This document shows, in pieces, positions 34,483-56,739 of a stretch of 64,000 nt of DNA. Positions within the stretch are counted from its first letter, which is position 1; each line of letters begins with the position of its first letter. The DNA comes from Lytechinus variegatus (Eukaryota > Echinodermata > Echinoidea > Temnopleuroida > Toxopneustidae), in NCBI RefSeq assembly GCF_018143015.1, contig NC_054741.1, positions 42,000,092 through 42,064,091 on the forward strand. The letters are read 5' to 3'. The notes beneath the pieces were generated by a model. It saw only the letters and a list, made by a program, of their open reading frames with translations. It was not told the origin of the DNA and made no database searches. A program made the position numbers and the translations under genes.

Positions 34483-34978
34483 AGGGGAAGTTCACCCTGA
34501 CAAAAAGTTTATTGTAAAAATAGCAGAAAAAATAATAAAAAATATTACCGAAGGTTTGAGAAAAATTTCATCAAATAATTAAAAAGTTATTAGAAATTCA
34601 ATTATTTGATTTGTGACGTCACATGCGAGCAGCGTTCCTACATAGCGAATGGTAAAAAATCTATGAAATGTCATTTTCTCAGAAAATTGAAAATGGTTTT
34701 CACTGTAACTTTTGTATATCAATAGACAAATCATTTCACACCCGTTCATGAAAAGAAAACAAAATTAAGTCATAAGGAACCATACAAAATTTGAAATTCA
34801 TACATTTTATATTACATAACACATGGGGCAGCTGCTCGTTTATGACGTCACAAATCCAAAATTTTGAACTCTAATAATTTTCTCACTCTTAACGGATTTT
34901 CCTCAAACCTTCACCAATATTTTTTACTATTTTTTCCGCTATTTTTACAACAAAGTTTTCTTCAGGGTGAACTTCCCC
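34483..34978. mobile_element. TTAA-flanked fold-back MITE inside the LINE
   Basis: The tips AGGGGAAGTTCACCCTGA and, inverted, GGGGAAGTTCACCCTGA continue into arms of about 90 bp (TAAAAATAGC, AAATATT, GAAGGTTTGAG blocks). TTAA lies at 34479-34482 and 34979-34982. The LINE RT resumes right after it (KVLYTNLES), so it is an insertion; removing it restores the coding sense to within one base. Two TGACGTCAC-type words lie inside. Non-coding. Confidence 0.85.
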
Positions 34979-35319
34979 TTAAAGTTTTATATACCAATTT
35001 AGAAAGCGCGGTAATGAATCGGGGTCTGTCATCAGGTTTTTTTCCCATTGAAAGAGGTGTTAGGCAGGGGGACCCATTGAGTCCCTATTTATTTGTTTTA
35101 GCTATAGAAACATTTGCTATAAATATTCGTGAAAAAAAGACAATACATGGTTTAAAAATATCTGACAATTTAGAATTGAAATTGTCGATGTACGCGGACG
35201 ACATAACGGTTTTCCTTTCAGACAATATTTCATTTAGACATCTTTTGAATACACTTCAGAATTTCCGAAAGGAATCATCACTCTCTATCAATATTTTCAA
35301 AACAAAGGCAATGTGGATA
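34979..35319 (+). mobile_element. Tx1/L1-like LINE, part 2: RT palm
   Basis: Contains RGVRQGDPLSPYLF (RT block 4) and YADDITVF (catalytic motif C, near 35190-35215), then the segment SLSINIFKTKAMWIG. The frame is open to the TA at 35318-35319, where the 20.7-kb element is inserted; the LINE resumes at 55975. Confidence 0.9.
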
Positions 35320-35336
35320 GGGGCAATTCCACAGGT
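35320..35336 (+). repeat. Left terminal inverted repeat of the giant element
   Basis: GGGGCAATTCCACAGG matches the inverted right end (55960-55974) at 13 of 15 positions. Similarity fades beyond that. Confidence 0.85.
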
Positions 35337-35682
35337 TGGTGGACATGAGCTCAAAAATTCAAATTCAATATTTTCTTGAATTTTTTTAATACTTTAAGTC
35401 CTTCATACATGATAGTTTCAGGAACAAGAAATAAAAAGTTTATTATCTCATGTATACTTTGGAAAGAAATGGTCAAAAGTTGTGTCTTCCATTCTGTACC
35501 AAAATACAAGAAAAATAGTGAAAAATGAAATATGCCTTATTACCATTTTGTTATTGCAACAACATACCACTTTATATGTTTTTGAAGTTTAGAAGAGTCG
35601 AATTACTTAAAATATGCAACAGATTTTCAAGTAAATTTGTAGTACTCATCAAAAATTGAATATTGCAACCTGCTCAGGTGAT

Positions 35683-35880
35683 GTAACGTGAGTAACCGAA
35701 AAAAATGACTTTGTTTTCTGAGAGAAAAATTCTTCACAGTTAATTGGTGGGATTTTAAATTCTCTTCATTCAAACAATCTTTGACACAGTGATGACTATC
35801 AAAATCATTAAAAAGTACAATTTTTTTATAAACATGATGAAGAAAAACTGTAACGTGAGTAACTTTGTAACGTGAGTAAT
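35683..35880 (+). promoter_or_regulatory. Left subterminal repeats GTAACGTGAGTAAC
   Basis: Copies at 35683-35696 and 35850-35863 (exact) and 35867-35880 (last base T). Each is itself a GTAAC-GTGA-GTAAC direct repeat. Subterminal repeats of this sort usually serve as transposase binding sites; that role is inference. Confidence 0.75.
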
Positions 35881-35999
35881 CATCATGTAATGTAACCAGT
35901 AAAAATTATTCAGTTAGGTAACATTTTCTGTGGGATGTCAAGTTTTAAGTCTCATGGTGAGTTATGAAGTTATTTTTGATTAATTAAAAGCAAAATGAG

Positions 36000-38844
36000 G
36001 GTACACCTCTTTGATGTGACTCTTTGTTCTTAAAAATATCAGTGGTCATACAATCACACAAAAAATTGAATATTAGTAGAAGTATTCACAATGCAAGAGT
36101 GCATATGACACATTCTCTATATACATACATTATTCACCACTTCTACTATTAAAATTTGAAGTTTTTCTGTGAGTTACAATACTTGGTTATTGAAGAACCT
36201 TGTATATTAGAGTTCTGAAAAATACTTGTTATGACATAATATACTGCTTATTATTTCTACTACAGCTGATCCATCATCGACACCTCAAAACCCCCTTTGG
36301 TCGTACTTGCCACGATAGCACAATCATGTAAACATGTACACAATCCAGTTTCCATTTTCGATACTGTTGTGAGATTTTGTGGTATTCCTTAAATCATATT
36401 AGCATATAAAGTTGAGGATAACCCATTTCTTCCTGAAAATGTGCTCTTAATAACAAAATTTACTGTATTTTGACAGACAAAAGAACTCAAACTTTAACCT
36501 CACTTGAAAGCAAAAGACAATACATTAAGACCTTATCAAAATGAACATACTAATGTACCGCTGTAACTTACAAAATTAAAATAATATAATTCGACCAGTA
36601 AAAGAAAGAGTGGAAGAGAATTCTTTGTTTTGAGTAACGTCACGTTTGACATTTTGCGCGTAACGTTCGCGGTATTTGACAGACGTAAACAACGCCGCAC
36701 ACAAAGTGCGTTGACATGCACGCAAAGCATTGTGGGGAGGATTCATCTATTCTACACGAGGGGTAATCTGCCGTTTCGCGAATTTATCATTCAAAGATGC
36801 CCCAATTGCACTTTTTTTTCATTGTATTTAATGTAAAATAGGTTTTGAAAATTTTTTATTTACAAAACAAATCAAATCAGAGGTAGAAAAGGGAAACATT
36901 TATCAACATGTGTAAGGAAAGTTCCCCAAACACAAATCGTCTTACCATGTATGGATCTCGAGCGCGAGATCGAGATAGCTCGTACTCGACTCGTCGACTG
37001 CTAGTTTTAGCTTCGGCTAGACGAGTGGCGGAGCCAAGGCAAAATGTGAACGAACCGATCAACTGATGATTGGTCTTGTCTGCTTGTTAAATGATTATTG
37101 ATCGGCATGAAAAAAAACCCCGTGTTTTAGAGGGGAAGCATGTATATTTCATGCTTATTACCGATATAGAAATTCGTGTGACCGACGTGAAATTGCGAGC
37201 TGGGATCTTATGTTTTCATACTTTTTCTGGTAGTCCCGTGTGTGCAACAATTTGTTTATAGTGAAATGCGTAATGTAAGTGTAGTCAACAAGGAAATGCA
37301 CGATCACTCCTGCGTAGAAACTATATCTGAGTTCAAGTGTGTACTTTAGTTACAAAAGTAGACTTGCGATCACCACGTAAGATGTTCATAAACCCTCAAA
37401 ATTAAGTCCCCTCAATATTTACTCAACTGATGAACCCAAACTCATAACATTTTCACTGAACTTTGTTTCTTCCCGTACCTAACACTTTTTAAACAGGAGA
37501 TAAACTTCAACACGTCAATGATGATGCAGGTTCAGTGCTGGTAATTTGCTTGTTTCCGGTAATTGTACTTGGTTGAAATCAATTTTATTTCATGCATGCT
37601 TTCATTTAAGTTGGTTATGAATTTCGAGGTTCCAAGTTCACTGTTGGAATTTTGAGGTGCAGATTTGCATGTAATTTAATGCACTTCTTATTGACAAGAT
37701 GGGATTTACATTTTTCATGTTACCATTCTGTTTACGTTTCAGAACACCATACAAATTACAAATGTCATGCTTGATTGAAGAATAATCAAATATACAGCAT
37801 AATTATTTTACCTTAAATGTGACAAATGAGCAAATAGTCGGCTGAACTTCCCTAGTGAAAAATTCAGTTCTACAGCGAATATTCAAGGTATATATAATTA
37901 TGCAATGACCATGACGTTAGCCCTACAAGTATAATTGTTATATCCTTACCAGCTTACCTTAAAAATCAGTCCTTTATTCCTGAAACTTATGCTGCATACA
38001 ATGGAAGCCGCATAAAACATGCAGTTTTTGTCAAAAGAAAAAAAAAACGGCTATCCATAACAAAAATGTCAAAGACAGCTCATTTGAATTCCATCAAGAA
38101 TGACTTGTTGATAAATATTGACTGAATTTTGTTTCAAGATTTGTTATTTCACGTATACTTCAGCAGCGAGTGTGATTTTCACAGATGAATTTCTACCAAG
38201 TCACATGAAGAAACTGACAAATTATTGACAGAAATTCACTAGGAACAGTCACACTTATTAATGCAACATGTACTGCTGGACATGCAGCATCTGGCAGGTT
38301 ACGTTGTCACGTGCAGCTAACGTTGAAACTAATGTGTACGTCAGACAAGGTAGTGTGGAAAAGGCTCTTCCTTTTTCTTTTAATCTTAACATTAGTCAAT
38401 TAAAGACTTGTTATAACTTAAATTTTTGTTTTTTATGTTCTAATATTCAATACAACTGTTTCAATTCATGTTAATTAGACTAACCGAATTCTGCTCATGC
38501 ATGATTCAAACATTTTTCAAGTTGAATTTTGGGCACTAATACTTTTTTAATGTTTGTTTTTACATGTTTTTTGTTTGTTTTTTAAGTGTCATGCACTGTT
38601 GTAATTACACTATTAGATAGCTATATTTGGTATTATCTCATCTATAAAAGTTGTTGACACTCCTGAACTCCACTATAAGTCACGACTGACAGTCGACTTG
38701 TCTACGAAGACTGGGAAATCTAATCAATTACCTCACTCTCGTATACCAGATGATGATGATAATTCTAATATCTTGTACTCTCCTTTTCATTTTATTTTCA
38801 TTTATGTTTGCATTCACTCTTATTTCCTCTCCCTTTTTGCACAG
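36000..38844. other. Element interior, no supported gene
   Basis: A CpG-richer stretch at 36625-36770 includes GAGTAACGTCACG and GTAACGTTCGCGG, relatives of the subterminal motif. A palindrome-rich stretch (CTCGAGCGCGAGATCGAGA) lies near 36958. Small open frames do not show domains or phased splice sites. Confidence 0.4.
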
Positions 38845-39010
38845 ACCTGATGAGGATCTCCATACCAATGTACCTGAAGCAACCAATCCAGATGGATACA
38901 CAACCATTGTTCATCCAATAATCCAAAGGAATTTACTGACCACCTCATCATGGACTAGACACATGGGAATAACCCCACATACTTCAATTGGCTATAATAA
39001 TTGGAAATGA
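38845..39010 (+). CDS. Possible terminal exon, function unknown
   Basis: A long pyrimidine tract and TTTTTGCACAG acceptor precede 54 open codons (PDEDLHTNVPEATNPDG...) ending in TGA. AATAAA occurs at 39528-39533. No upstream exon with matching phase was found, and the protein is not recognised. It might be a second, plus-strand gene of the giant element. Confidence 0.25.
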
Positions 39011-39021
39011 AAGGAAAATTG

Positions 39022-39440
39022 AGTCACAATAGGCAATATGTGAACAGAAGAAAAAAAATATGGCAAGAGGATGGATTTTTTAATGCATGTACAAATAATA
39101 CATGACCCATCACATCATGGGTATAATTATTACATGTAACAAGTAAGAACAATTATTTAAATACAATTCAGTTTACATTTATTTCTTATTCTTCGTTAAT
39201 TTTCATTTAAAATGAGTATATATTATAGATTGAACAGTATTTGAATGAGAATTGGACAACATTTGAACAGAAGAAGAAATCATGGAAGAAAGATGGATCA
39301 TTTTTAGTACATGTACAACTACAAATGTATTGGTGCATGTGCTTTATCATGCCATCATTGACGTAATTATTACGGTTTGACATTAGTTTCCTATTTTTGG
39401 TTAATTTTCATTAATAAATGAGTATGTAAATTGTATATTG
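39022..39440. repeat. Tandem duplication, about 215-bp unit
   Basis: TTGAACAGAAGAAGAAAT.ATGG, ATGGAT..TTTTTA and TTAATTTTCATT...ATGAGTAT blocks occur in the same order in 39022-39235 and 39250-39440. Non-coding. Confidence 0.7.
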
Positions 39441-39988
39441 CTTGTAAACAATCAGTTTATTATTTAGGTTATTATACTAGATTTTGTTTGAATTCATTTT
39501 GTAAATTATTTGGAAAAAATTTCCAGAAATAAAATCAAAATCAAATCAAATCAATGTCTGTAAATACATTATTCAGTCTCATAGTTTGTAATTTTAAGTT
39601 ATATTCATTACACTGTATCATATTGCAAACCATCATAACATGTATTCATATTTCTTGATACCAAGAAATGCATTCTTAATATCAAGAAATATCACAAAAT
39701 GCATTTGTTGATATCAAGAAATCCCGAGGGGGGGGGGGCAGTCAAGCCCAGTGCTGTACACATGCGCAACCAAAGATATCCAAAAACCCCCCTTTCATAT
39801 CAGGAATTGACTCCAAAGTACCCCTAAACAAGCATTTAAAGCAGGTTCGCTAAATACTAGTTAATGATCCTCTGCATGAAAATTTCAAAGGCTAGCTAGT
39901 CCGAATTTCTTTTTTTTCTATTGTACATGTACTATGTAGAAACACAAAAAAAGGCCAAAATAACAATGAATTCTGATGTTGCCATTAA

Positions 39989-40262
39989 AGGTACTGGGTG
40001 AGAGTGTATGACTGCAGAATGCAAGTGTTGAGTTACGAGTTGAACTGGTATAAAAAATGTTATCAGGTGTCACAGAAGCCTAAATATGACTAAAGATTTG
40101 GAAAACATATCGTCTGGAGAAAACTATGAATGAAAATATGGCGAGAGCGTCACCGTAATGCTAATTTTCTTTACTTTGTTTTTATTTTCATTGATGTCTC
40201 GCAAATATATCGATTGGATTTCTCAGAAGTTTTGCACAAGCCAACACTCTTACCCAGTACCT
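39989..40262. mobile_element. TTAA-flanked MITE
   Basis: Tips AGGTACTGGGTGAGAGTG and, inverted, AGGTACTGGGTAAGAGTG (17 of 18), with TTAA at 39985-39988 and 40263-40266. piggyBac-type duplication; superfamily inferred. Non-coding. Confidence 0.85.
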
Positions 40263-40498
40263 TTAAATGATGTACTATAAGCCGTAAGATATTTTGATAA
40301 CACACTACCTAACACAAGTGTGAAAGAAGATACGACTAAGCCTCCGCACACAACACGATTTTCCGGAGCACGACTGATCGATCTCGGATCTGAAATAAAA
40401 TATTGCGTACATTTTGTGCACGGTGATTTATTTCAAATCAAAGAGTTGGTCAGTTGTACGAAAACCGTGAAGTGTGCGGAGGCCTTAAGTGTCAGAAC

Positions 40499-41382
40499 AA
40501 GAGTGTCGCTGGGGTGAGCACATGAGCCCGCCTGAAAAGCGGAAAATGGGAGTTATTCCTGGGATCAATGCTAGTGTCGTACACATCAAATTATATGAGC
40601 CTACGTTTATTTAAACTCAAGTTATTGCGTTTACAAGGAAAAGTTAACAGACTTCACAAGGGTAAGGTGAAAACATGTCATTGTGACCTTAATGTTTGAC
40701 TTCGGGACCCCAAAATAAATGGGCTTCCTGGGATCCATGGTAGTGTCATACACACCGAATCATATGGGCCTAGGTTAGTTGAAACTGAAGTCATCACATT
40801 TACAGGGACTTCACAAGGGTAACATGAAAACATGTCACTGTGACCTTGACCTTTAGACCTCCAAATCAATTGGCTTCCTGGGATCCATGCTAATATTAAA
40901 CAAACCAAATTATATGAGCCTAGATTAAAGGCAAAGTTTAGTTTTGGTAACTGTAGAAAATCATAAAATTCCTAATCAATTATTTTAATAGGGCATTATG
41001 ATATCTAACACCCCTGTGAACTGTTTTCTTCAAAACCATCACTTTTGGGTAATATTTGGGTAATAAGTTCTAAAAACTCAGGATGTCGCCAAGATTTTCA
41101 CCATAGCTTTATCTACAAAACTCCCTCTAGTGGCCATTTGTTGACTACTTATAATTCGTCATTAGCAGTGATTTTGGGTGGATTTGATCTCATTTGCCGG
41201 TGTCTGGAGTCTGAATGCTTCATTTTTCAAAAGACTGATAAAAACTTTTTCGGTTGTACCAAAATTATACTTGGCCTTTAAGTTAAACTGAAGTTATGGC
41301 GTTTACAAGGAAAAGTTAACGGACGGACAGACGGACACCAAGCGTGATACCATAATACGGCCCGCAGGCGGACGTATAAAAA
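40499..41382. repeat. Minisatellite-bearing element, copy 2 (CCCGCC ends)
   Basis: Same start (AAGAGTGTCGCTGGGGTGAGC), core units and end (GGACACCAAGCGTGATACCA) as 3058-3934. The tip hairpin is CCCGCCTG...GCGG on the left and GGCCCGCAGGCGGAC on the right, different from copy 1 yet alike at its own two ends. A TTAA-type insertion (40930-41277) interrupts the last unit. Confidence 0.8.
40930..41277. mobile_element. TTAA-flanked insertion inside minisatellite copy 2
   Basis: The intact unit elsewhere reads CCTAGGTTAAGTTAAACTG. Here it reads CCTAGATTAA, then AGGCAAAGTTTAGTTTTGG, about 350 bp, then CCAAAATTATACTTGGCCT, then TTAAGTTAAACTG. Tips match at 16 of 19 and TTAA is duplicated. Superfamily (piggyBac-like or Kolobok-like) is inferred. 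Non-coding. Confidence 0.85.
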
Positions 41383-41394
41383 TGATTGAACATT

Positions 41395-44300
41395 TTATGC
41401 TTCATTGGTAGCGAGGAACTTCCTGATAATCTTATCTTCTTCAGATGTCATTAAAGACAGTTTGAATCTTGTCCCTGTAATGTTAATATCAGGTGACACT
41501 GTGCAGAGTATGTCATCCTGCATCTGCCAGGACACATCCTCCACTGCAGGCCATGAGTAGTATGATCCAGTCTTAGTGAGGTAGGTCACTTTAACATGCT
41601 CATCTCTGATTTCCAAAACCTGAAAGAATGAAAGAAATTGCCAGCTTGAATGCATAAGGAAAATCACAAATCATATGATTTTCTGAGAACATAAATGTGC
41701 TTGCGTGAAAATACCTAAATTTGCAGTGCATAAGAAAATTATTTATTTAGCTTTTGATGGGTATGGGGAACAATTTGATTTATATGTCCTGCTATTATGT
41801 CCTATAACATAATTCCAAGTAATAATACAGCGAAAAGTCATTAAAACCAGGACACTGGGGTCATACAAAATTGCCTTGGTATATTACACTCGTATCAGAT
41901 TTAAAATTGGAAATAAATGGGACCAAAATCTAAACTTATTCTAGCGATTTTATGAAATCAGACATCTTTATTATAAATGTAACATACTTTGACTCCCAAA
42001 CTATTCACAATAGTTGCTTACCTTTCCTATGTACCAAGAACCTCTTCCGCGGAGACTTGTAAGTCTAATGGCCACAAATTGGCCACGAGTCACCTCAACT
42101 GGAGCTGCACATCAAGAAAATGAAAAAAAAATGTTTACCATTTCCACCCCCCACCCAACCGATGCCAAAAAATATTCAATGTTTAACATATAATCAATCA
42201 AGACTAACAAGGTTGGTGGGTGCGTAAATTAATACATTCTTTTTGTGATGAATCCTTGTGGCAAGACTGCCCTACCATTCAAACTTGCTTTGCAGTTCTC
42301 ACTAAAATTAGGGCTTGTCTATCTATTTGGGAAATTAGAAGACCACTCATTCTATAGATCATTTATTCATGCAAATACACCTCCACGTTTGTTTAAATAT
42401 TAAATATTTGATAACGAAGGAAGACTAGTACATTATCAGGGAAAATCTCATGCATAAAAATGACTATTGCTTTTATTTTGGCAAATAAATTACCTGCTTG
42501 GTCCTTGTTGGAAGGCTGCATTTCAATCTGAGGTTCCCTAGCAGGTTTTTCAGCTGGAACTGGGTCTTCTCTATCTCTTGCTGCAATTGAAAGCACTAAA
42601 TCTGTAGTTTACTTGTCGGAATATCTGAATTTTGCATACTAATGAAATACAAGCGAGTGGACAGGGAAATACAAACTCATTACACTACTTAGAATGTTTC
42701 AGAAACTTATAAGATGGGTTTGTACAGAAAGACTGACCTTGTACGGGAACATCTGTTGGTTTTCCGACTGGTAGTTTGTCCCCTCTACGTAGTGCTGCAA
42801 ATGAAATTGAACAATCAGTAAGTTATTTCTTCTTGCTCAAATAACTGGATTTTGCACACAAAATCAAAAAAATACAACCAAGTGGGCAGGGAAATCCATA
42901 CTCAATACACTAGTCCCATTTCTTAAAAGATAACAGTTTTGTGAATAACGGTTTTGTGAAAAAATGTAACTAGTGCATTGAGGAATATATTGAAGTGAAG
43001 AAACACTGACCTTGTACGGGAACATCTCTTGGTCGTCCAGCTGGTACCCTGTCCTCTCTAGCTCTTGCTGTAATTAAAAAAAAAACAATCTGTAATTTAT
43101 TTCATGTAAGAATAACTGGATTTTGCATATTAATAAAATACCAGCTAGTTGACAGGTCTATTCAAATTCATTACACTAGTTACATTTTATTTCAATTACT
43201 TGATGGATTCTTGTAGAAAGACTGACCTTGTATTGAAACATCAGTTGCTCGGTCTGCTTGTACCAGGTCTGGTCGTTCTCGTGCTAAAATTGAAAGAGAA
43301 CAATCATTTCAGTGCATAAAAAGTTTTAAAAAGTATAAAAAAAAGGAATTGATGAGCATGTCAAAAAGAATGGAAAGAAGAAATGCATTTCTACACCAAT
43401 CTTAAAGTTATTGTAATGAATTGTGTATACTAATATTTGCACAAGTGTTCTTTTTCTTTAATAACGAATTCGAAACTTGCATATCACTAAATAATACACA
43501 TTTACACGTTTTGTCATCGTGATAACATGTCCACTAGTCAATATTAATTTCCATCAGCTCTGTTTCTTTTAGGGGCAAAATGAATATTGGGAGTACCTGG
43601 TTCATGCTCTGCATGCTTCAGCTTCAATTTCCGCGTTGCAAACTTCCCAATGTGATCTGTGTTTAGGCAGCCTTCAAATCTCTCCTCCATGCACTCCTCG
43701 CAGAAGCAGGACAATTGTTGTGCCTTTAGAACATAAGGACGAAGATTTGTGATCTGATGTAGGCGCCTGCATCCCATCATGGTGTGAACATCAGTCTCTT
43801 CCTCTTAATTTCGCCCTTTCTGACAAGGAAAGAATTTTCTGCGAGATGGTCTTTCTGAGGACGACAAGTTCTTACAGCACCATGTGAACATCTCTTCTGC
43901 ACTGTTAATGACTACTTCCCTTGACAAGATGGCACGGTCAATGGCTTTGTTAATAAGGCCAATCTCACCATCACCTTCTCCTTTGCCATGTTCAGACCCA
44001 AAAAAGTGTCGCTCAGTTCTCACAGTCTGGAGGCTCAAATCAGCAAATGAGCCGCGTCCCTTGTACTGGCTGGTGCACCCATCACTGAATATGATTTCTC
44101 TGTTGATGGTGTGGTTAGCAGACAGGTAGTCTTCTGTGCACTTCAAGAAGTGGTTAACAGCATGGTGATCATGCCCAAGGTCATCTGACAGGAACACAAC
44201 TGATTCCCGAACAACACTACCATCCTCCCTGTAGTAGCACACTACAGGATGCATTGTGACTTGCTGTTGAGTGAAATAGGCTGCCTTTATCTCATCTTGG

Positions 44301-46697
44301 TAAAAAACCTTTCTGTTCCGAGCAAAGTCCATCACCATCAATGCAACATTGTCAGGTAGGTTGTCCTTAATCCTTTGGAACTGTCGTTGCTGCCACCTTG
44401 CAGTGTGGAGGTGTTGAACGAAATTTAAACCTTGTGTGGGTGAAAGGACATCATATGCCCATTCTGCTTTATCAATGTTATAAATGTATTAATTCAATTA
44501 GTATAAGTTTGGGATTGTCTTTTTTTTTCAAGCAATCTGCTTATGATGACAATCCTTCTCCTGCAAATTGTGAACATCATATAGTTAATCATTTTTGTCT
44601 GAATTATCTTTTTAGTAATCTTTATTTACAATTTATGCCAAAAATGCTAACATATTATGTTTATTATGTTATGAAAAATGTATTATACAAATGTTATGGA
44701 TGCAGAAGAAAACAATAAATAAATGTTATAAAAAATTTCTGAATTCACCGACGAGATCACCAAGGGTACCATGTTTTGTACTGAGGACACGTTTCGACTT
44801 TCCATCTGTCATTGTGTGACGTTCCCAGTGATTCCAAGTTACGTCCATTCCATCATCAGACTGCAGTAATTCATGGCATAACTCAGTCAGTTTCTTCCCG
44901 AGATCACTGCATTTGTCACACTCACCTCTGATACAAGTTGCCTTGTGAAAGCGTTGACTTGCAGGCAAAGGGCAGAGCAGGAGATCGATCAACTGGTATT
45001 CATCAGTGATTCTGGGACTCTGACACTTTCCAGAATTCACAATCTTCTTGATTGTTTGCACCTTGTACATGATGTTAGCACAGTACACACAGAGGCATGT
45101 GTCATGAAAGTTTCTTGAGAAGAGTCGAACACTCCTTGGCCTTAACTTTGCAAAGGCGGCAAAACTTATTTTGCACCGTGGAGAGTCCTTGGAAAAGGTC
45201 TGGAAGGCCCTCTTGAGCGTCATCTGCATGACATATGCTGCTCCATCTCACTTCGTTGCATACCTTTTGTGTGGAAGCATTCTCGAAATGTCCCCTCGCT
45301 TGTAGAAAGACTGCACTTTCTCCACAACATGCCTTGGGAGTTTTCGTCCTGGCTTCTTCTTTTTGGCCAAAACCCTCCGTGCAAACGTAAGTGCTGACTT
45401 TCGATGCAGTAGTTTCAGCTCACGTGGTGAAAGTTGGGGACTTGTACTCCACTGTATTCCCTCCCTTTCCAGTGCTGCCTGTTTTCGAGGTGAGGTGTTT
45501 TTCAGAAGTGCCTTGATAACTTGCGCAAACTTCCTTGGGGACTCCGGCAATGATTTCCTTGCTTTGGAAACATGATTGTAGAAGGTATTCTGATTGTAGA
45601 ATGGATTCTGTGATGCACAATTTGACCTTCTGGAACTTGCAACTTTCTTTTGCATTTCACGCTTTTCTCTCTTTTGTTTCTGATCTTTTTCTCGAATCCT
45701 TCTCAGTTTTTGTGGCTCCTTCTCTTTGAGTCTTTGTCTTTCAGCTTGTTTTCTTTCCCTCCAGTAGGCACGTCTTGCTTCAACTGACGATCGCGTTGCC
45801 TTTGAGACTGAATCCTTCTTGCTCGAGGTCCTTATGGGTAGCTTCACCTTCAATGCCTCTGCTGGGTGAGGTAACCTGCTTTGACTGAAAATAAAACAAA
45901 GTTTGCAATGATCAAATTTGTCATAAATCAATTTATAATCACTTTTCTTCTGTAATTCATCTTTTTACATGTATTTCATATACTTAGAAGTGAAATTGAT
46001 GTGCATTAAAAACAGCATAGTGTTCAACCACATGTATTTAAACAGGAATATCTACAAAATATTAGAAACAATGTACTACTGTAAAAGTGGAAATTTTCAT
46101 GCATATCCCGCAACGCGAGCATAGCACGAAAATAAAAATGCGCAAATATTTTTGTTTACCTTTTTGTTCAATGGAAACGGCTGACTTTTCGCGGAATGCA
46201 TCATATTTGGCTTAGCACGAAAAATTAATCCTGTGAAAATAACCACTTTTACAGTTATCATAAAAGGCACATAATTTTTATCAACAAACATTTAATCCTG
46301 GCAGGGCTTGAAAAAATTAGGGTAAACTAAATTATCCTTCTAACTTCCTTTTTGCCTGATTCCAACTTACAGGTAGATTGAAAAGTAAAATTTAATTTAA
46401 TACATGGTACTTATTTCACTGTTCCAGTTTACATTAAAACACATCCAGGTACCTAGTACAAACCACCAATGTACACACATTAAAAAAGAAAAACTGACTC
46501 AATATCTAGATCTATAACTTCAATTCAAATACTAGTAATCAAACAACTTTACCATTTTTTCCTTTCTCGGAATCGTTGCTGCCTTAGCCTGGCCAATTCC
46601 CTCTGCCTTTGCCTCTCACCTTCAGACAGACCCTGGCGGTACTTCCGGGCACGTTCAGCTTGCCGGGCTTTCTTCTCTGGATCAACCCTCATTGTCA
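41395..46697 (-). CDS. Intron-rich DDE-transposase-like gene of the giant element
   Basis: Nine coding exons: 46697-46553 (ATG at 46692), 45884-44749, 44430-43597, 43283-43227, 43067-43011, 42794-42738, 42580-42494, 42104-42022, 41619-41395. All introns are GT-AG and every junction is in phase; total about 891 codons. Order: basic coiled leader (MRVDPEKKARQAER), Lys/Arg-rich region, Cys motifs (DTCLCVYC; CIRGECDKC), a DDE-like core (MVMDFARN, IFSDGCTSQYK, HGKGEGDGE; Asp to Asp about 82 residues, Asp to Glu about 39), Cys cluster CFCEEC, four short linker exons, then an SH3/Tudor-like end (GQFVAIRL..WYIGK, YYSWPAVED). In-frame stops at 45248-45250 and 43805-43807, the latter beside a likely local double frame slip, suggest recent decay. 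It resembles uncharacterised animal proteins I cannot name; the transposase role is inference. Confidence 0.75.
42494..43283 (-). repeat. Tandemly duplicated exon-intron units
   Basis: Exons 43227-43283, 43011-43067 and 42738-42794 are each 57 nt, same phase, and encode A.xRxDxVPAGxPxDVPVQ-type 19-residue repeats. Exon 42494-42580 begins the same way (ARDREDPVPAEKP) and diverges. Donors are all CAAG|GTCAGT for the first three. Introns share ATAACTGGATTTTGCATA and ACTCATTACACTAG words, so whole exon-intron units of about 215-270 bp were duplicated. Confidence 0.85.
44431..44748 (-). other. Intron, possibly enlarged by an insertion
   Basis: Bounded by G|GTGAAT and ACACAAG|GT, phase-consistent. 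The plus strand carries AATAAATAAATG followed by an A-rich end near 44715-44735, like the 3' end of a small retroelement. Whether an original intron grew or a new insertion is spliced out cannot be told here. Confidence 0.4.
46077..46257. mobile_element. TA-flanked MITE in the first coding intron
   Basis: Tips CTGTAAAAGTGGAAATTTTC and, inverted, CTGTAAAAGTGGTTATTTTC (18 of 20) with TA at the edges; Stowaway/Tc1-mariner-like. The whole is about 176 bp and lies between coding exons 1 and 2, where it does no harm to the reading frame. Confidence 0.8.
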
Positions 46698-47035
46698 CTG
46701 TTTATAAACTGGCAGAAATTGACACATTAAACTTTCTGAAATTTTCATTAAGAAATATACACAGTCTCTTCTTCTTGTGGTTTTGATATTGTTTTCACAA
46801 TCACTATAGTCTAGATAAATGTCATAATCGAAAACGAATCTGTTGTACCTACACCAACATACGAAAAAGTCTACACATGGGACTACACAGACGGACATTG
46901 GGGAGAGTTAGGGATGTTTTAGGGAAGAGTGAGATAAAAATGTACGAGATTTTGCTCCTGTTCATCAGATTCGGATATTTTTCTTTTTAAGAATTGTCAT
47001 TCACCTACAAAAACGCAAGTAAGAATGTCGCTTAC

Positions 47036-47150
47036 CGTTAATCTCTGTTCTTCATATCTGACAAATCCGATCTTGGTCGCCTGGATACGACCGCCACTGC
47101 TCGGAAGATTTCTTTTCGCCGCGCCTTGGTATAGCTGTCTGCTGATCAGC
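47036..47150 (-). promoter_or_regulatory. Probable non-coding first exon and promoter side
   Basis: The minus strand has GATTAACG|GTAAGC, a strong donor at 47036, which would join to the acceptor ATAAACAG at 46698, five bases ahead of the start ATG. The upstream DNA (47040-47300) is CpG-richer than its surroundings and contains GCAACGTGAGTAG and GTAACGTTC, relatives of the subterminal motif. The transcription start is not visible. Confidence 0.45.
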
Positions 47151-47299
47151 TGCAGAATCGCGAAATTGTGACGTTATTGTCAAATGCATGTACTGCACAG
47201 CATCGGTCGGTCAAGAATACAGCAACGTGGCGCGCAACGTGAGTAGCTCTGTCAAGCAGCCCGTAACGTTCTAGTCATGTCGGTCAACTGACACTAAGT

Positions 47300-48532
47300 C
47301 GTAACGGTTTGCACATTTCCTGAACTTAATAAAAATACGGACATTAAAATATTGTGTCTGTCATACTATGATAAACATCAGCGATTGAACTAGCATGACA
47401 AAGAACGTTTGAATCTAAAATCCTTACGTGGTAATCATGACGGACCCGTTTCGTGGAAACGTTATATGTACGTTATATATCGAAGTACCGTGATGAAAGT
47501 TGACAGACATTGTTTCGGGTAGTAATTTGGAAAATTAACATTTTTTTCAGGGCTAGAAAAACTGTGAAATTTAAATGCTCTCTAAACACTTCTTCGTCCA
47601 TGATTATCACATCAAATGAGATTTCTTAACATTTCTAACAGCTGGAGATAAAAAATTGAAACGTTACTTGATGCGTTTGACAGACAAGGGGTAGTGAGTA
47701 ACGTCCGCGATAACACGCCCGAAGGGAATAAGCTAGTAATTTCCGAGGTCGATTAAAAGTTGTTTTTATCGTACTTTGCACCTTCTAAATGTAATATTTA
47801 TTAACTGCAGGTTACAGTGTACATTGGATTTACTGATATTTAGATTACTGGGAATTTGACAGATTTTGACAGACCGGAGTAACGTTTCCACTACCGTCGG
47901 CAAAATTCAGTTTGTGTTATGAAGATACACGAGTCTGAAATTTTTACTGCATCAATTTAAGAAAGGAACATATATGGTATACGAATATGATACTATTTGG
48001 TAAAAGGGGTCTCCCATTTTTTCCTACAAATGTTTCAAATATGAACAGCTCATGAACAAGTAGTATTTGTCTGTCAAATATGTAACGTTTTCAACATAAT
48101 AATTAAAAAACAACAAATTAAATTTTGTGGGTGGAGATCAAAATTGTCTTTATTATTTCCTTTATTGAAGATCTGTTGTGCAATGATAATGAAAACACAA
48201 ATACAAATTTATCTTTTTAGATAAATAACTTCATTTATTTGACACCATAAAACACAAGTATATAGAGAATCTGCCATTAGTAAGACTTGGTTTCGATTAA
48301 CCAAACTTTAAAGAGTGTTCGAACAACACCTTGAATGCCCTTACCTGTAACCCTATCTAGGCCAGGGTATTTTGGGAGTTGATATGGCCCAGGGGGGGGG
48401 GGGGGGTGGGGGGCTTCCCAGGTCCCCCCCTTGATATCTCGGCCATTGGCCGCACGATCACGCCAAAAATTTGTGCGCAGGTTGTCTTGGACATAATCTA
48501 CAATACTATACAGTAATTTATTTCATGCAAAT
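47300..48532. other. Element interior, no gene; poly-G run
   Basis: Contains GTGAGTAACGTCCGCG near 47692 and GGAGTAACGTTTCCAC near 47875, again resembling the subterminal motif. Run of 15 G at 48392-48406. No open frame supported. Confidence 0.45.
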
Positions 48533-49319
48533 ATGAAAATACTTACCTGATTTTCTTATTTACGAGATAACTCATACATCTACTTGATTTGCTAGTTCAG
48601 CCCTCTGGACTGCCATACCCGAATAGAACTCCCAAGGATTTAAAAAGCGCGAGCGCGCCCTCTCCCGTTCAGGCTTACTACCCATGATCACCGCGCAACT
48701 AGCGTCCATCTTCCTCACCTTTCGCAAGCCCATACGTTGAAACATGTTGCTACGCAAGGCGGAGGGTCGGTGGGAGGGTATCAAGTAGATGTATGAGTTA
48801 TCTCGTAAATAAGAAAATCAGGTAAGTATTTTCATAATTTACTTCAATAACTCCATACATCTACTTGATTTGCTAGACCAGCACGGACTCAAACCGTAGG
48901 GAGGCATGTTTTCAATTGTAAGCCTAAGAAAATTTAAAAGAAAAAACAAAAACAACGAAATTTAGGGAGAGGGGGAAAAAAGCCGCAGCTGCTTTAAGCG
49001 CCGAAGCAGCAAATCTCGCCTCGCTGGACGGAATGTCCTTCAAGTAGAAAGAAGTGAAGGAGTTAGTTGAGCGCCAAAAGGCGGCCCTCAAAAATGTCCT
49101 CGAGAGGAATGCCCTGTATACTCAGGAATACTAAGTATCATGGGCCCTCGGCCTAGTGTCAGGAGAACAACATCACCTGCTGACTAGAGCGTAAGAATCG
49201 AAATTTGTTGAAAATTTCAACAAGAATCGTGATCGGAAAACTGAAGCTTTTAAGGCTCAGTAAGTGATCAATCGACCAATCTGAGAAGGCGAGATATCTC
49301 AGAACCCCTACCGGAATTT

Positions 49320-49520
49320 AAGCGTGCCGCTTGCTAGTAACTAGCATGCGACTAGCAGGGCACTCGCTTAATAAGCGAGTGCATGCTAGCGAACAGTCCC
49401 TGCTCGCTAAAAGATCGCTTAACTATTACTCTGCACGCATATCACACGCTTAATAAGCTAACCGCATGCTAGTTACTAGCATGCCGCAAGCTTGCGCAAG
49501 CTAGTCGCACGCTTCCCGCA
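49320..49520. repeat. Palindrome-rich segment of the DIRS-like fossil
   Basis: Overlapping self-complementary words: GCTAGTAACTAGC, CACTCGCTTAATAAGCGAGTG, GCATGCTAGTTACTAGCATGC split by spacer, GCAAGCTTGCGCAAGC. Strong secondary structure is likely in RNA or single-stranded DNA. Confidence 0.75.
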
Positions 49521-52394
49521 AGCTTGGAAATTTCTGTAGGGGAAGCCTCCGCGTGGGAGAAAGCGCCCAGAATTCGATATCTGTCTCAAATGCGTGAGGG
49601 CAGAAATCTGCAGAATTCTGATAGAGAGCTGTGGTAAAAAGTTACTAGCGGTCCGAAGGGGACCAGGAACGACGGAGAGTAGGGATTTAGGAAGAAAACC
49701 ACTCGTAAGGCAGACAAGGGTCGAGAATGCGACTGAGTGCCATCCTGTTAATAAGGAATGCCGCGGACATGTTGCCTATGTAGAATAGAGCAGTCTGGTC
49801 AAAACAGCTCAACCGGGCGTGTCAGGGATACAGCGCGGTACACATCACGACAAAAGTGTGTTAGACCGAGTGATCGAGAGAGAACTCAGGATCCCCTTTC
49901 TCCCATACTGATTGAAGCACCCATCTGAGGGTGCAGTGCCCGCGGTGGAAGAGGTGGCTTGGCTCAAGCCACCATCGCCGAGAGAGCCCGTGAGGCTAGG
50001 CTGCGATGGCTGTCCGCTGGGCGGGGGAATCCCTAGCAGCAGCAAGTGTACGCCAGAGGGAGCTGGCGAAAAAAAATCTGTCACGATATTACGTGTAAAC
50101 GACCATCAAGAGATGCTCTAAACGAACAGACATCGCCAGATATGATACCTCAACCGTTACATTCCCAACGGAATCGAATGAGGTAGCAACGGCCCTGTCC
50201 TATCAAGTTAGGGACGGAAACTGGCTAAGAGTGTCGAAGTCCTCGCTTGAAGAAACAAGCGAGGGAGACTTGAGGAAGTAATCACAAAATTTCCATCAGT
50301 CTGCGGTGAGAACCAGTTGTTTATGAAAACAGTCACAAGGCCTGTTTCTCAGGTGATCGTAAGAGCGAGCACCGCCGGCGCCGGTTGCGGCAGCGTGGAA
50401 CAGTCCGATATCGGTAAGATAAGGAGCTCCAAAAAGCTGCGGGGGGGGGGGGCGGCAAAAATGACGCCCTAAGCAGCGGGGGATGAGAATCTAAATTTCT
50501 AAAAGAAGAACTCCAGTGAAGTAAATCACTTACATGGAGAGGCTCATCCACAGTCGGCCCGAGAGAAGGCGGGTCGTAGTGATCGTGGTTAGGAAGGCAT
50601 AAGCATACATCCGTCCACTGTTACATCATCCTCGGTCGTGCGGTGACCCTGGCCACATGCCTTGCATGGAAGGAGGATGAAAGCAGCATGCGGGGCGACT
50701 CGAGTGTGCCGTGAAAAAATTTCTAAGAAAGAAGCCGATTCGACTAACGGGCACGGTAAAGACATCCACCGTAGACCACTCCGCACAAGGAGGGAGCGGC
50801 GGAGACGCCCGCAAGATTGACCCACATAGAGGGCAGTCTATAAGATAGACAGTTAGAGCTCGACCGATGGTCTGGCGGTGTACAGTTTGGTGTGAACTCG
50901 CCGACCCGGTACGGTGGGTGTGCCCAGAAAGTAGGCATAGAATACCGACAGAGAATCCTGGGGCTTTAAACAAGTTTGAACGCACGTACATAGCCAACAA
51001 TCTCATGAGATGTACGGCGGTTACTTTCCTCCGAGATGATGTTTACCCAACCGGGAAAGACTCGGGGAACAGCTGTGAATGTCAACAGGAGGGATATCTA
51101 GCATATGAAAAGCTGATTCCTTCCACGTATTCGGAGCGGGTGCTGCCGGCGGTGTCCGGGGGGACGACCGGTGATGGCAGCTCGGGCAGGGTTCGTACGA
51201 GCCGCCCGAATACGAGACAAATAGGTTAACATAACCATAATGCACCGGGTGGTGAAGGCATAGCGATTATTAAGCACAGGAGAACTTTTAATCGCCGTGA
51301 CATTCAGATCCGATATACATACTCATAAGCTCGGAGAGCTATGAGATAGTGAGACATACCGCTGAGCGGTGATGGTGCTCATATCAGAGTCGCCCTCTCT
51401 TCAGCGGCGATCGCTGGAGAACGGGTGTCTGTACTATAGCCCTGACTCTGGCGTTGCAAGGGTAGGAGCTAAGTAAGACAGGGCACCCTTACTTTCTAAT
51501 AGAAAGTGAGGTTCAGGCCAGAAAAGCGACGGTCCCGTCGCCTGGGCGGACGGTCCGCGGACGTGATAGGTTGTCCTCTCAAAGCAGCCAAACATTCTCA
51601 CGAGAGAAGTGCGGCATGCGGTATGTAAGAGATTCATACCTCCAATCTACGGGCCCGCTTAGGGGGAAGAATGGAGAGAGTTACCGCTGAAGGAGTCGTC
51701 GCCGTATGTGAGCTTGACGTAGAGGGCGAATTCGGGAGTACCTGCATAATAATCGCCCCCCCCCCTGCCTCTGCCTTCTCGCTAGCCTCGAGAGGCTTGA
51801 AAATTTCGAGACGGCGGCGCCGGAGCCTGGCGCTTCCGGGCAGCAGCAGAGCGGGGGTGGGTTTACACCCACGGAGCTGGCGGCTTCCTCGTCGTAGGAG
51901 CCGCCTCGTCTAGAGCGACCCCGTCACTCTCCGAGACCCCCAATTCGGCCGATTGAGCTCGGAGCGCCTGAAGAGGCGGGGCGAGAAAATATGGACTCCC
52001 TTGCTTCATCAATACCCCCGCTCGGAGGGTAGATGTGAGGTAGATACTTGTCAAGCAGCGCCTGAGCGCTTACTGAAAAGTCGACCGCGGGATAGGGGTT
52101 GTCCTCGTAAAGGGAGTCTCGCTCTATGGACTGAACCGGGAGGTTGTCCAGTAAGCGCCGGGGTGGCCCCGCGTGTCGGCTGGGACACGTGCTCTGAGAT
52201 CGACGAAAATGCTGGAAAGCACACGCGATCTTGGGGCACCCGGTTAGTCGGTGCACTGGCTGGCGATTTAACAGAATCGCTCGAGGATTTCCCGGGTGTC
52301 TGGTGGTTATTGCCCACTTGTCTCGCTTGATGCTCAGGGGCATCAGCGGGGTGAGTAGACGTCGAGGGTGGGGTGAACCCGCACTACTCGAAAG

Positions 52395-53240
52395 CAGAAT
52401 GTAGCAGCATGAATAGCTGTGACATCTGACCACCGACACAAGGGTCTGAAGGAGGGACGCCCATGGCAACAGGGCTGGCCGACCTCACCTTCGACCTCTT
52501 CTTCTTCGCGGCCTCCGCCGGTGTGGCCGGGGCAGAAGAAGGCACAAGAGGCACGGGTGATTTCTTACGATTTGCCGCCCCTGGCAGGGCGGCCGTCAAC
52601 AACGAAACTTCACCCGAATCTGACGGGGTCAGATTGTGGTCACAGTCTGATGTGTGACGCCTCTCGCGGTAGCAGAATGTAGCAGCATGAATAGCTGTAA
52701 CATCTGACCACCGACACAAGGGTCTGAAGGAGGAACGCCCATGGCAGCAGGGCTGGCCAACCTCTCCTTCGACCTCTTCTTCTTCTTCTCTTTCTGCGGG
52801 CTCCGCCGGCGTGGCCGGGGCAGAAGAAGGCATGAGAGGCACGGTTGATTTCTTACGATTTGCCGCCCCTGGCAGGGCGGCCGCCGACAATGAAACTTCA
52901 CCCGAATCTGACGGGGTCAGATTGTGGTCACAGCCCGATGTGTGACGCCTCTCGCGGTAGCAGAATATAGCAGCATAACATGTATGACTGTAACATCTGG
53001 CCACCGATAAGAGGGTCTGAAGGAGGAATGCCCATGGCAACAGGGCTGGCCGACCTCTCCTTCGACCTCTTCTTCTTCTTCTTATTTTGCGGGCTCCGCC
53101 GGCGTGGCCGGAGCAGAAGAAGGCACAAGAGGCACGGGTGATCTCTTACGATTTGCCGCCCCTGGCAGGGCGGCCGCCAACAACGAAACTTCACCCGAAT
53201 CTGACGGGGTCAGATTGTGGTCACGATCAGATTGTGGTTA
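52395..53240. repeat. Three tandem units of about 280 bp
   Basis: AGCAGAATGTAGCAGCATGA-type starts at about 52395, 52671 and 52957; each unit continues with ACATCTG.CCACCGA, GGCTGGCCGACCTC, CTTACGATTTGCCGCCCCTG and CACCCGAATCTGACGGGGTC. Inside the DIRS-like fossil; minus-strand open frames repeat with the unit. Confidence 0.85.
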
Positions 53241-54474
53241 CAGTCTGTGTGACGCCTCTCGCGGTCAGGGGCTGGGCGATCTCTCCCGATGCTGTCAACG
53301 GAGGACGACTTATACGGCAGAGATCCTGACCTGTGCCGGGGGGAGAGAACCGCACTCTCCCTCCGGACTTCTGGTGACCCGGTAGCCGGTGGGTCGCATA
53401 GCCCTATGGGTGCTGCGGCGGCAGGACCTAGTTTAGGCTTGGAAGCCTTGGCTACCACTTTTTCCTTTGTCCGAGACCGTGGCACCACAGTCTCGGCCTT
53501 CCTTCTCTTAGCATCCGACCGCAAATTCGGAATGCTGATCGACGCACCCTCATACTCACCGCCGCTGGGCGCTCACCGCGGCGTCCCTCCTGCTCGCCTG
53601 GAGGCGGCCGACTTCTGTAACTTGCAATCGGGACGGTCCCCGTGGAGGGCACCAGGTCCTCTGGGGCTGTGTTAGTCCCATTCAAAGATACCTCTCTCTA
53701 CCCTGAAAAAGGAAAAACACGAATTTTTCTTTTTTTTTTTTTTTTTACAAAGATCTCGCTTAGATTAAAAGTGGAGACCGGAGTGGTCTTTCCCTCCTCC
53801 TAAAAGGAGTTTGTTTGAGCAAACAGAACAAAACAAGAGGGGAGGGGTAGGGAGGAAGAAGAACCTAAGAATAGTTTAGGTATCTGCCTGTAAGAAAATA
53901 AAAAGGAGGTCGGAGATTTTGAAAAAAGAACTCCTACAAGGTTCCCCTACTATATTCTCTTTTATTGTGCCCGAAGGAAAAATTCGAAACAAAAATTCAA
54001 AAATGAATGCAAGTTCAGAAGAGAACGAAGTTTCCACCTGCGAAGAAACACAAAAACAAGCATTTCAGAGCAGGAAGAAAAAGGGATTGAGAGACAAATA
54101 ATTCCTAGATAAGAGAAATTTTACGATAATTTCCAAGAGGAAAAAAAAGTAACCTCCTGTGGAAAGGTAAAGAAATTCAGAACAGGAGGAAGGAGGAACG
54201 TCTCTAGTAACGATTCCAAGAGGAAGAACGACACAGTAAATCCTCAAAGGGAATCGTAGAGCCCGCCTGTCGAAATAAAAAAATATATAAGACTAGGAGG
54301 GAAGAGGGAATTGAACGAAGAAAACAATTCCGGGACAGGTCAAAAAAATTTCTAACAGGAAGGAGACCCCACCTGTAAAGAACAAAATTTTTTTTTTTTT
54401 TTTTAGGGGGGATTGAATAACCAAACAATCATCAGGTATAATTGCGTAAGCCGAATTAAACAATCCCCGAAGCG

Positions 54475-54745
54475 TCTGTGAATAAAATATTAATCAAGAA
54501 TTTTATTCAGAACAGAAAGGAAAAGGAATTGAGCTTTAGGATCCGCCTGTGAATAAAATATCAATCAAGAAATTTATTCAGAACAGAAGGAAAAGGAATT
54601 GAGCTTTAAGATCCGCCTGTGAAAAAAATATCAATCAAGAAATTTATTCAGAACAGAAGGAAAAAGGAATTGAGCTTTAAGATCCGCCTGTGAATAAAAT
54701 ATCAATTAAGAAATTTATTCAGAACAGAAAAGAAAGAGAATTGAA
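54475..54745. repeat. Four tandem units of about 66 bp
   Basis: Unit built from TGTGAATAAAATATCAATCA, AGAAATTTATTCAGAACAG, AAGGAAAAGGAATTGAGCTT and TAAGATCCGCC, four copies with few differences, so recent. Confidence 0.85.
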
Positions 54746-55603
54746 GAATTAATCAATCAATAATCAATCGAAAATCTTAATAAATCAATTCCAGAAAGCA
54801 AGGAAGGAAAAGAGTTGAAGATCCCAACCTGCAAAAAGAAATAACAATAACACCCTCGACAACAAAGTGTAGAGGCTGTCTAGAATTTAATTCAAAAACG
54901 GCACCAAAAGCCACCACGCTTTGAACGTGAAGAACAATAACCATGACAGGTGGTGAAAGCTTGCTGCCACGTAGGCAGGCCAAGCCCGGTGCCTCGCGAA
55001 CGCGCTAGCGATGCGGCGCGACGAGAACTCAAACGTTAGGAAAACAATTTAAGTGTCATCAAAAACACGTCTAAAAAGTCACGCCAAGTGTAAATTCTGA
55101 ACACAATCTTACACACAAATGGAAAGATTGAAATTAAAAGGGAGAATGCACCACAGATAAGCGAAAATAATATACCAAAGCTCAAAAAGATTTGAGCTCT
55201 TAGGAGACTTATCTGAGCACGTCTTGACAGGTGGCTTGCCGAAAGCAAAAGAGGAAGATGGACGCTAGTTGCGCGGTGATCATGGGTAGTAAGCCTGAAC
55301 GGGAGAGGGCGCGCTCGCGCTTTTTAAATCCTTGGGAGTTCTATTCGGGTATGGCAGTCCAGAGGGCTGAACTAGCAAATCAAGTAGATGTATGGAGTTA
55401 TTGAAGTAAATTAGATATTAAGCGATTATGCTTATTTATGCATAATTATTAAGCAAAACCATACTTTTCCCTCTTATTCCCTAATAAAGCTCCAATTGTT
55501 CCAATTTTTGGTATAAAATCTCTTTTTGATGTTCTTAGCAATGAATTTTACACACATTTAATTTTTAATGACATGTGTGTTGTTAACCATACATGGACAA
55601 AAT

Positions 55604-55960
55604 GTAACGTGAGTAACCATATTATCTGCACCCCAAGTAAAAACCATGTGTTCTTTAATATTTTAATTATATACAAAGTTTGTCTCCCTAATATACTTCT
55701 TTGAAATGGATATAATCAACTTTCATAAAAGCCTTGTATGAGGAGACATTTCACTTATGTCGACTTTTCATTTTATGCATGTCCAAATCATGTAACGTGA
55801 GTAACCGACACATTCCAAAGATTTGCCAGGAGCATAACAAAATTTCCCAAGTTTTGATTTTATACAAAGGATAGTCAGAATGTGTACTTTGTTGTGATAT
55901 GGAGATGTTTAGTTCCTATCAAGTATGAGTCAAGGTGTCTCCAAATGTAACGTGAGTAAC
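55604..55960 (+). promoter_or_regulatory. Right subterminal repeats GTAACGTGAGTAAC
   Basis: Three exact copies at 55604-55617, 55792-55805 and 55947-55960, each followed by C and in the same orientation as the left set. The last abuts the right terminal repeat. Confidence 0.8.
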
Positions 55961-55974
55961 CGTGGAATAGCCCC

Positions 55975-56739
55975 TAGGAGCCTGTAAAGATAATCAACAT
56001 TCACTAGAGAATATTCAGTTTGAGAAGTCTTTGACAATTCTTGGAGTAGATATAGCATATTCACCCAATGTGTTTTTCTTTACAATTGCGAAGAACACTT
56101 GTGTCACATATGTTGGATGAGTATGGCAGACCATTAAGATGGTATCACCAGAAATTCTAGTGCATCTTTTTTATTCTTGCCATGTCGTTAACCAATTTTG
56201 GAATAATGTTGGTACACTTTTTGCTTCACTAGATCTTCCTGATTTCCTCTCAGAAAGTTATGTTCTTTTTGGTATCTGTAAGCCCCAAATTCCCAGAAAT
56301 ATATTTATATTGAACTTTCTGCTCCTGTCAGGTAAACAATATATTTTTAGATGTCGATGTGATGAAACAAAACCTACTCTCCCATTTTTGTAACTTTCTT
56401 TTATCATTTGAAACTGTTGAACATACCATAGCACAAAGGAAATGCAAATTAGAAAAACATGATGGCAAGTGGGCTATCATTCTGAATACTTTAAAGAGGC
56501 GATAAAGCAGAAGGCTATTTTTGTTATGCTTATTTTTTTATAGGCCAAGTGCCTGATTTTTTGTTGTTGTTGTAAACAAACATATATGTTTTCTTATTTT
56601 ATACTATTTTGTATGTTAGACATGTTATTTTATATGCCAACGTCATCTGAACTTTAATATGTGATCCATTATACCATGAATGTTTTGTTATGTATATTTT
56701 GATGAAAAGGATCAATAAAACATGAATTACGAAAAAAAT
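55975..56739 (+). mobile_element. Tx1/L1-like LINE, part 3: C-terminus and tail
   Basis: Begins with the second TA and GGAGCC, continuing the RT frame (KSLTILGVDIAYS). A TGA follows at about 56117, then ILVHLFYSCHVVNQFW, the zinc-binding C-terminal motif of this LINE group. About 200 or more residues expected between these are missing, so there is an internal deletion. The 3' end has AATAAAACATGAATTACG and a short A-rich tail near 56715-56738. Confidence 0.8.

Follow-up and report, generated by a model that had tools for sequence, protein, structure and literature searches.

A 20.7-kb insertion in a sea urchin LINE is most likely a nest of mobile elements that includes a Sola-like DNA transposon

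We analyzed a window of 64,000 nucleotides from the sea urchin Lytechinus variegatus (NCBI RefSeq assembly GCF_018143015.1, contig NC_054741.1, positions 42,000,092 to 42,064,091 of the forward strand), in which an earlier note had described a single 20.7-kb transposon with terminal inverted repeats (TIRs) inserted in a long interspersed nuclear element (LINE). Coordinates are positions within this window, and the genome searched amounts to 869.6 Mb, the window included. The reported unit is most likely a nest and not one transposon. At least four mobile elements are very probably stacked at this place: a non-autonomous TIR element of about 1.6 kb (element A) entered the LINE, a transposase-bearing transposon (element B) and a DIRS-like retroelement then hit A, and a 271-bp repeat split the gene of B. 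Thus, the cut-and-paste insertion of a TIR element in a LINE is upheld by recurring tips and shorter relatives, but the single 20.7-kb element holding its own gene is replaced by a much smaller element, the gene residing in a probable nested transposon.

The host LINE can be read on both sides of the insertion. Its 5' part (32585..35320, + strand) contains endonuclease and reverse transcriptase (RT) pieces in three open stretches and is broken off at 35320. A Pfam scan detected Exo_endo_phos on 32585-33232 (E=1e-12) and RVT_1 on 34846-35319, directly before the insertion (E=2.2e-16), while another RVT_1 match on 33431-34357 (7.6e-4) was below the cut-off. Once the flanks are joined (...AAAGGCAATGTGGATA|GGAGCCTGTAAAGATAATCAA...), they encode MWIGACKDNQ in a single frame of the LINE RT, as had been claimed (MWIG|ACKDNQ), and the 3' continuation (55978..56118, + strand), starting ...GACKDNQHSLENIQFEKSLTILGVDIAYSPN after joining to the left flank, extends to the next stop. 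The restored frame indicates that the insertion entered at 35320/35321 and ends at 55973/55974. The inverted tips announced at both ends are also genuine, with 13 of 14 bases matching, a level reached by 2 of 20,000 random place pairs. The outer edges proposed earlier are real, but each has to be shifted by one base; the corrected unit spans 35321-55973 (20.65 kb) and its tip reads GGGCWATTCCACRG.

The tips of A recur across the genome. Its 29-base right tip has 47 exact matches and its left tip 424 matches with at most one mismatch, the control giving 0 in both cases. With TA required directly before the tip, 41 matches were obtained, versus 2 in the control. Exact left tips number 36, and the 388 others carry one mismatch; among the matches listed (the first 64 of these 388), 61 deviate solely at base 1, having A or T, indicating that the first G of 'GGGGC' lies outside the tip and is not conserved. 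Both tips were found together at 39 other places, where the target duplication is 4 bp long (exact in 27, one mismatch in 9, worse in 3). Of the short copies (210-715 bp, n=21), 17 have the same four bases beside GGGC and beside GCCC, and the other 4 show one mismatch; of the longer copies (mostly about 1.6 kb, n=18), 10 have identical bases, 5 show one mismatch and 3 more than one. Shorter copies sharing the tips, which the earlier note had proposed to look for, therefore exist, but with a 4-bp duplication instead of the expected TA. Left out of the short-copy count was L047, whose flanks are identical to those of L046: these two short copies (C3:3158636 for L046 and C3:3210076 for L047) lie 51 kb apart, and their shared flanks suggest that a local duplication copied the insertion along with its surroundings. 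In the window, comparison with other copies places the target duplication at 35317..35320 on the left (ATAG) and 55974..55977 on the right (CTAG).

Alignment to the 1.6-kb copies shows which parts of the window belong to A, the window stretches 35321-36104, 48275-48532 and 55408-55973 being directly consecutive in these copies. Together with empty sites and paired tips, it defines three segments of A, all on the + strand: a left segment (35321..36106) that begins with the tip GGGCAATTCCACAG (35321..35334) and whose final four bases, ATAT, stand at the place of B's left target copy; a middle segment (48276..48532); and a right segment (55408..55973) with three subterminal repeats and the tip CCGTGGAATAGCCC. 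The subterminal repeats reported earlier could be confirmed as six copies of TGTAACGTGAGTAACC that deviate by one base or not at all. All are on the + strand, with three toward either end of A, and they start at 35682, 35849 and 35866 (0, 1 and 1 mismatches; 35682..35881) and at 55603, 55791 and 55946 (0 mismatches). Short copies of about 234 bp consist of the left tip and a stretch resembling 55781-55973. Divergence from their own consensus is 0 to 3.3% for 19 short copies, and averages 2.2 and 1.8% for two stretches of the 1.6-kb copies (17 and 15 copies); the family that A matches is young and non-autonomous. The window copy of A diverges by 3.7 and 3.2% from the same 1.6-kb consensus stretches, more than the 1.6-kb copies themselves, indicating that the young copies did not arise most directly from it.

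Element B (36107..48275, - strand), most probably a nested transposon, measures 12,169 bp and has the tips GACACATTCTCTATATAC and GGCAGATTCTCTATATAC; ATAT precedes it and ATTA follows it. The site 36106/48276 is empty in 25 locus rows corresponding to 20 distinct A copies (20 of the 20 readable by script), with the sequence GTGC-ATTA in 19 of them (followed by GTAAG in 18 of those) and GTGC-TTCA in one. The best inverted match between the tips within 3 bases is 16/18, the maximum among 20,000 random place pairs being 15, and their spacing to ATTC is the same as in the tips of A and of two homologous elements described below (L095 and L100). A partial copy at C7:36305823-36308988 matches the window from 45084 to 48277 with 96-99% identity and has the same right tip end, with different DNA beyond it on both sides. 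The entry of B as a transposon of its own is thus strongly supported, and the gene that had been credited to the 20.7-kb element is most likely that of nested B. The left 2.5 kb of B has no other match anywhere in the genome. A 72-nt sequence stands in inverted copies, 89% identical, to either side of the partial copy (L110 and L117, C7:36304800-36310100), a layout to be expected if a different inverted-repeat element had captured B or received it as an insertion.

A DIRS-like element of 6.9 kb (48533..55407, - strand) forms the other insertion in A. DIRS elements carry inverted terminal arms and, internally, a stretch complementary to their outer ends, and the same arrangement is seen here: inverted arms at 48573-48716 and 55251-55394 (144 nt, 100% identical) and an internal region, 48780-48882, complementary to both outer ends. 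Its site is empty in 18 distinct other A copies, where 48532 adjoins 55408, and AAAT stands on both sides of it in the window. It differs from known DIRS-like retroelements in that no RT or tyrosine recombinase domain was detected in any of the 10 reading frames scanned, one weak FBP_C match (2.7e-4) being below the cut-off; it could be a non-autonomous copy. Tandem repeats lie within it at 52393-53224 (293-bp units) and 54476-54744 (71-bp units).

The transposase gene of B (41398..46692, - strand) was delineated from reading frames as several exons chosen by eye, with the phase verified for the exon 1-2 junction only, where the frame is kept. It contains two in-frame stops, TGA at 45248-45250 and TAA at 43805-43807, and an abundant young repeat of 271 bp (44453..44723), which is 96-100% identical at 38 other places among the matches listed (40 of 1269 candidates scored). 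Stops and repeat together indicate that the gene is broken in the assembly. An intron between 44488 and 44740 was rejected, this stretch being the abundant repeat. The predicted catalytic part (43808..44452, - strand) carries a D-81-D-36-D triad formed by residues 54, 136 and 173 of an open frame of 227 aa (43808-44488), whose first residues fall in the 271-bp repeat. D54, D136 and D173 are invariant in all eight aligned sequences and belong to 11 invariant positions that include N58, H106, H167, G168 and K169. Such conservation suggests that the three aspartates are catalytic. The catalytic frame has 21 matches in the genome, the next best being 38% identical, so that this frame has no close second copy. 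Pfam gave nothing above cut-off for the B window frames scanned or for seven homologues, whose best E-value (0.0057) is to an unrelated cadherin-like model; a PDB sequence search likewise returned no match, and neither pattern search nor tblastn found viral, phage or prokaryotic relatives.

We inspected the flanks of four homologues (L092, L093, L095 and L100). Three of them, 25-31% identical, lie in elements of their own, whose tips are GGGCCAAAACCAC, GGGTCATTCTCA and GGTCGATTCCAAC and whose 4-bp duplications are exact. The L092 element measures 5,844 bp (tips GGGCCAAAACCACTAACTCG and GGGCCAAACCCACTAACTCG, duplication ACAG), that of L095 5,711 bp (tips GGGTCATTCTCA, duplication TATA) and that of L100 6,216 bp (tips GGTCGATTCCAACGAAAAGT, duplication ATAT); the flanks of the latter are repeated AT, which leaves the first base of its tip ambiguous. 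Shuffled sequences yielded such pairs of tip and duplication in 0 of 12 cases for each of the three. Within these elements, the frame of L095 (711 aa) and that of L100 (751 aa) are uninterrupted. Two other homologue loci, L107 and L108 (C4:1406630 and C4:3509245), lie 2.1 Mb apart in opposite orientation and are 99.8% identical over 3.3 kb, which reflects either recent copying or a duplicate introduced by the assembly.

A and B have the motif GTAACG in common with these homologous elements. Across these five (A, B, L092, L095 and L100), 28 occurrences fall in the end stretches and 4 in the interior, and it is the top-enriched 6-mer, a ranking that is descriptive since the end stretches (1,100 bases; 650 for A) were chosen after the motif was seen and the repeats of A are near-identical. 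In B, two sites lie near the left end at 36634 and 36660 (36634..36665, + strand) and six GTAACG/CGTTAC sites near the right end (47263..48087), none of the eight being more than 1.1 kb away from an end of B. This distribution suggests that GTAACG may be bound by the transposase.

The earlier note could not match the unit to a named superfamily. The triad and the 4-bp duplication narrow this to a Sola-like assignment: B-type elements fit the Sola superfamily, perhaps Sola2, as judged from printed descriptions of features and not from sequence comparison. Sola elements are described (PMC10741241) as carrying DDD transposases and TIRs of 11-1124 bp, with 4-bp duplications and lengths of mostly 2-9 kb, some exceeding 15 kb. 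For Sola2 of Dictyostelium fasciculatum, TIRs of 12 or 13 bp and AT-rich 4-bp duplications are given (PMC3627910). The superfamily is also known in animals, Sola1, 2 and 3 being listed for bivalves (PMC10294476). The 4-bp duplication is matched by the A copies (27 of 39 exact) and by three of the four homologues (exact), that of B (ATAT/ATTA) being inexact; the DDD signature is matched by D-81-D-36-D in eight of eight aligned sequences, where its catalytic role is probable. The TIR and size ranges given for Sola (PMC10741241) also agree, with inverted matches of 13/14 for the A tips and 16/18 for those of B and lengths of 12.2 kb for B and 5.7-6.2 kb for the homologues. Sola2 tips resemble GGGTCATTCCA, which served us as a lead and not as support. 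The subterminal GTAACG repeats go unmentioned in the Sola descriptions contained in the available portions of PMC10741241 and PMC3627910. Academ was considered as well: for AcademX, 3- or 4-bp duplications are given (PMC10045372), a range that includes the 4 bp seen here, but no helicase or nuclease domain was matched by Pfam in the B exons scanned, which cover part of the B frames, or in the seven homologues. We did not meet the B-type family in the open-licence literature searched, which lacks the defining Sola papers, and make no claim of its absence from print; a search of the same literature for printed tip sequences gave no transposon titles among the matches listed.

Several observations weigh against a nest of separate elements related by their enzyme. 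The duplication of A in the window is unequal at one base, and the flanks of B are unequal too (ATAT on the left, ATTA on the right, the empty site having ATTA), so that its own duplication is inexact. A search for further B copies by tip gave none that is credible: the three exact matches are both window tips and the C7 copy, and matches with one mismatch number 5 versus 11 in the reversed-pattern control, which exceeds them and deprives them of credit. The left tip of L093 (GGGCCATTCT) was found and its right partner was not, the strict tip pattern matched nothing in L090, L091, L094, L096 and L105 (3.3-3.6 kb of each), and GTAACG is present in just 5 of 20 homologue loci, as counted in initial extracts, most of which need not include element ends. 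Finally, a CAT triplet stands at both B breakpoints. Internal deletions use microhomology such as short shared triplets, and this triplet, together with the unequal 4-mers flanking B, would suit a different explanation in which the ends of A and the gene form one autonomous transposon of 13.8 kb, the 1.6-kb copies are its internal deletions and the DIRS-like insert alone is foreign. The transposase encoded by the gene belongs to the group that would be expected with GGGC tips and 4-bp duplications, and the sharing of GTAACG by A and B is also in line with a single element. This explanation, which was our first reading and has mostly been dropped, nonetheless seems quite improbable. It does not account for inverted tips of B's own at the breakpoints, with ATTC spaced as in A, L095 and L100, nor for the C7 fragment that stops at the same right tip beside different DNA, and it would not place every GTAACG site of B near B's own ends; the fragment and the tips rather indicate a separate insertion.

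A Tc1/mariner-like identity, which would require a strict TA duplication and is the reading closest to the TA noted earlier on both sides, is almost certainly wrong. TA does flank both ends of the unit in the window, and the duplication seen most often in the A copies compared is ATAG/CTAT, although part of these loci was found by a TA-containing pattern, which inflates the ATAG and CTAT counts. However, TA directly follows the right tip in 17 of the 47 matches, the window among them, and not in the other 30, the central TA is missing from 10 of the 27 exact duplications (CCCT, TTTG and CAAA for example), and no transposase was matched in Pfam; the 4-bp duplications of the paired A copies refute the TA duplication. 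A chance composite or an assembly artefact would be in keeping with several unrelated repeats crowded into 20 kb and with a whole transposase gene that is present here only, but is highly improbable, since empty sites elsewhere or the LINE frame account for each junction of A, of B and of the DIRS-like element, and since the tips, which on such a reading need not occur together, form pairs at 39 other places with duplications that match. It is also conceivable, if rather doubtful, that B and its homologues form a lineage distinct from Sola whose transposases, by way of the shared GTAACG, cross-mobilise non-autonomous families that are unrelated, A among them. Such a lineage would be defined by D-81-D-36-D, by GGNNN-A tips (most with ATTC following base five), by 4-bp duplications and by a subterminal GTAACG recognition sequence retained in proteins only 25-31% identical.

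Under the nested history that we favor, A (1.6 kb, non-autonomous) would have entered the LINE by cut-and-paste, making a 4-bp duplication, probably moved by a transposase of the B group. A would later have been struck by B (12.2 kb, transposase-bearing and of a related kind) and by the DIRS-like retroelement, in either order, and the 271-bp repeat would afterwards have split the transposase gene of B. As a mechanism, read from sequence features, the B-type transposase most likely acts as a Sola-like DDD enzyme that would bind the subterminal GTAACG repeats, bring both ends together, cut at the tips and insert the element with a 4-bp stagger.

Tandem arrays are also found elsewhere in the window, at 3353-3851, 11545-12341 and 20597-21394, with units of 150, 163 and 192 bp, and a repeat resembling the 150-bp kind by eye lies inside B at about 40556-41324.

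The analysis corrects a single-element reading that is easily made when related transposons nest. It also provides an animal transposase group, which has no match above cut-off in the Pfam library copy searched, with a testable signature consisting of the tip, the 4-bp duplication and subterminal GTAACG. A recognition motif that is legible in strongly diverged members would allow non-autonomous families to be assigned to the enzymes that move them.

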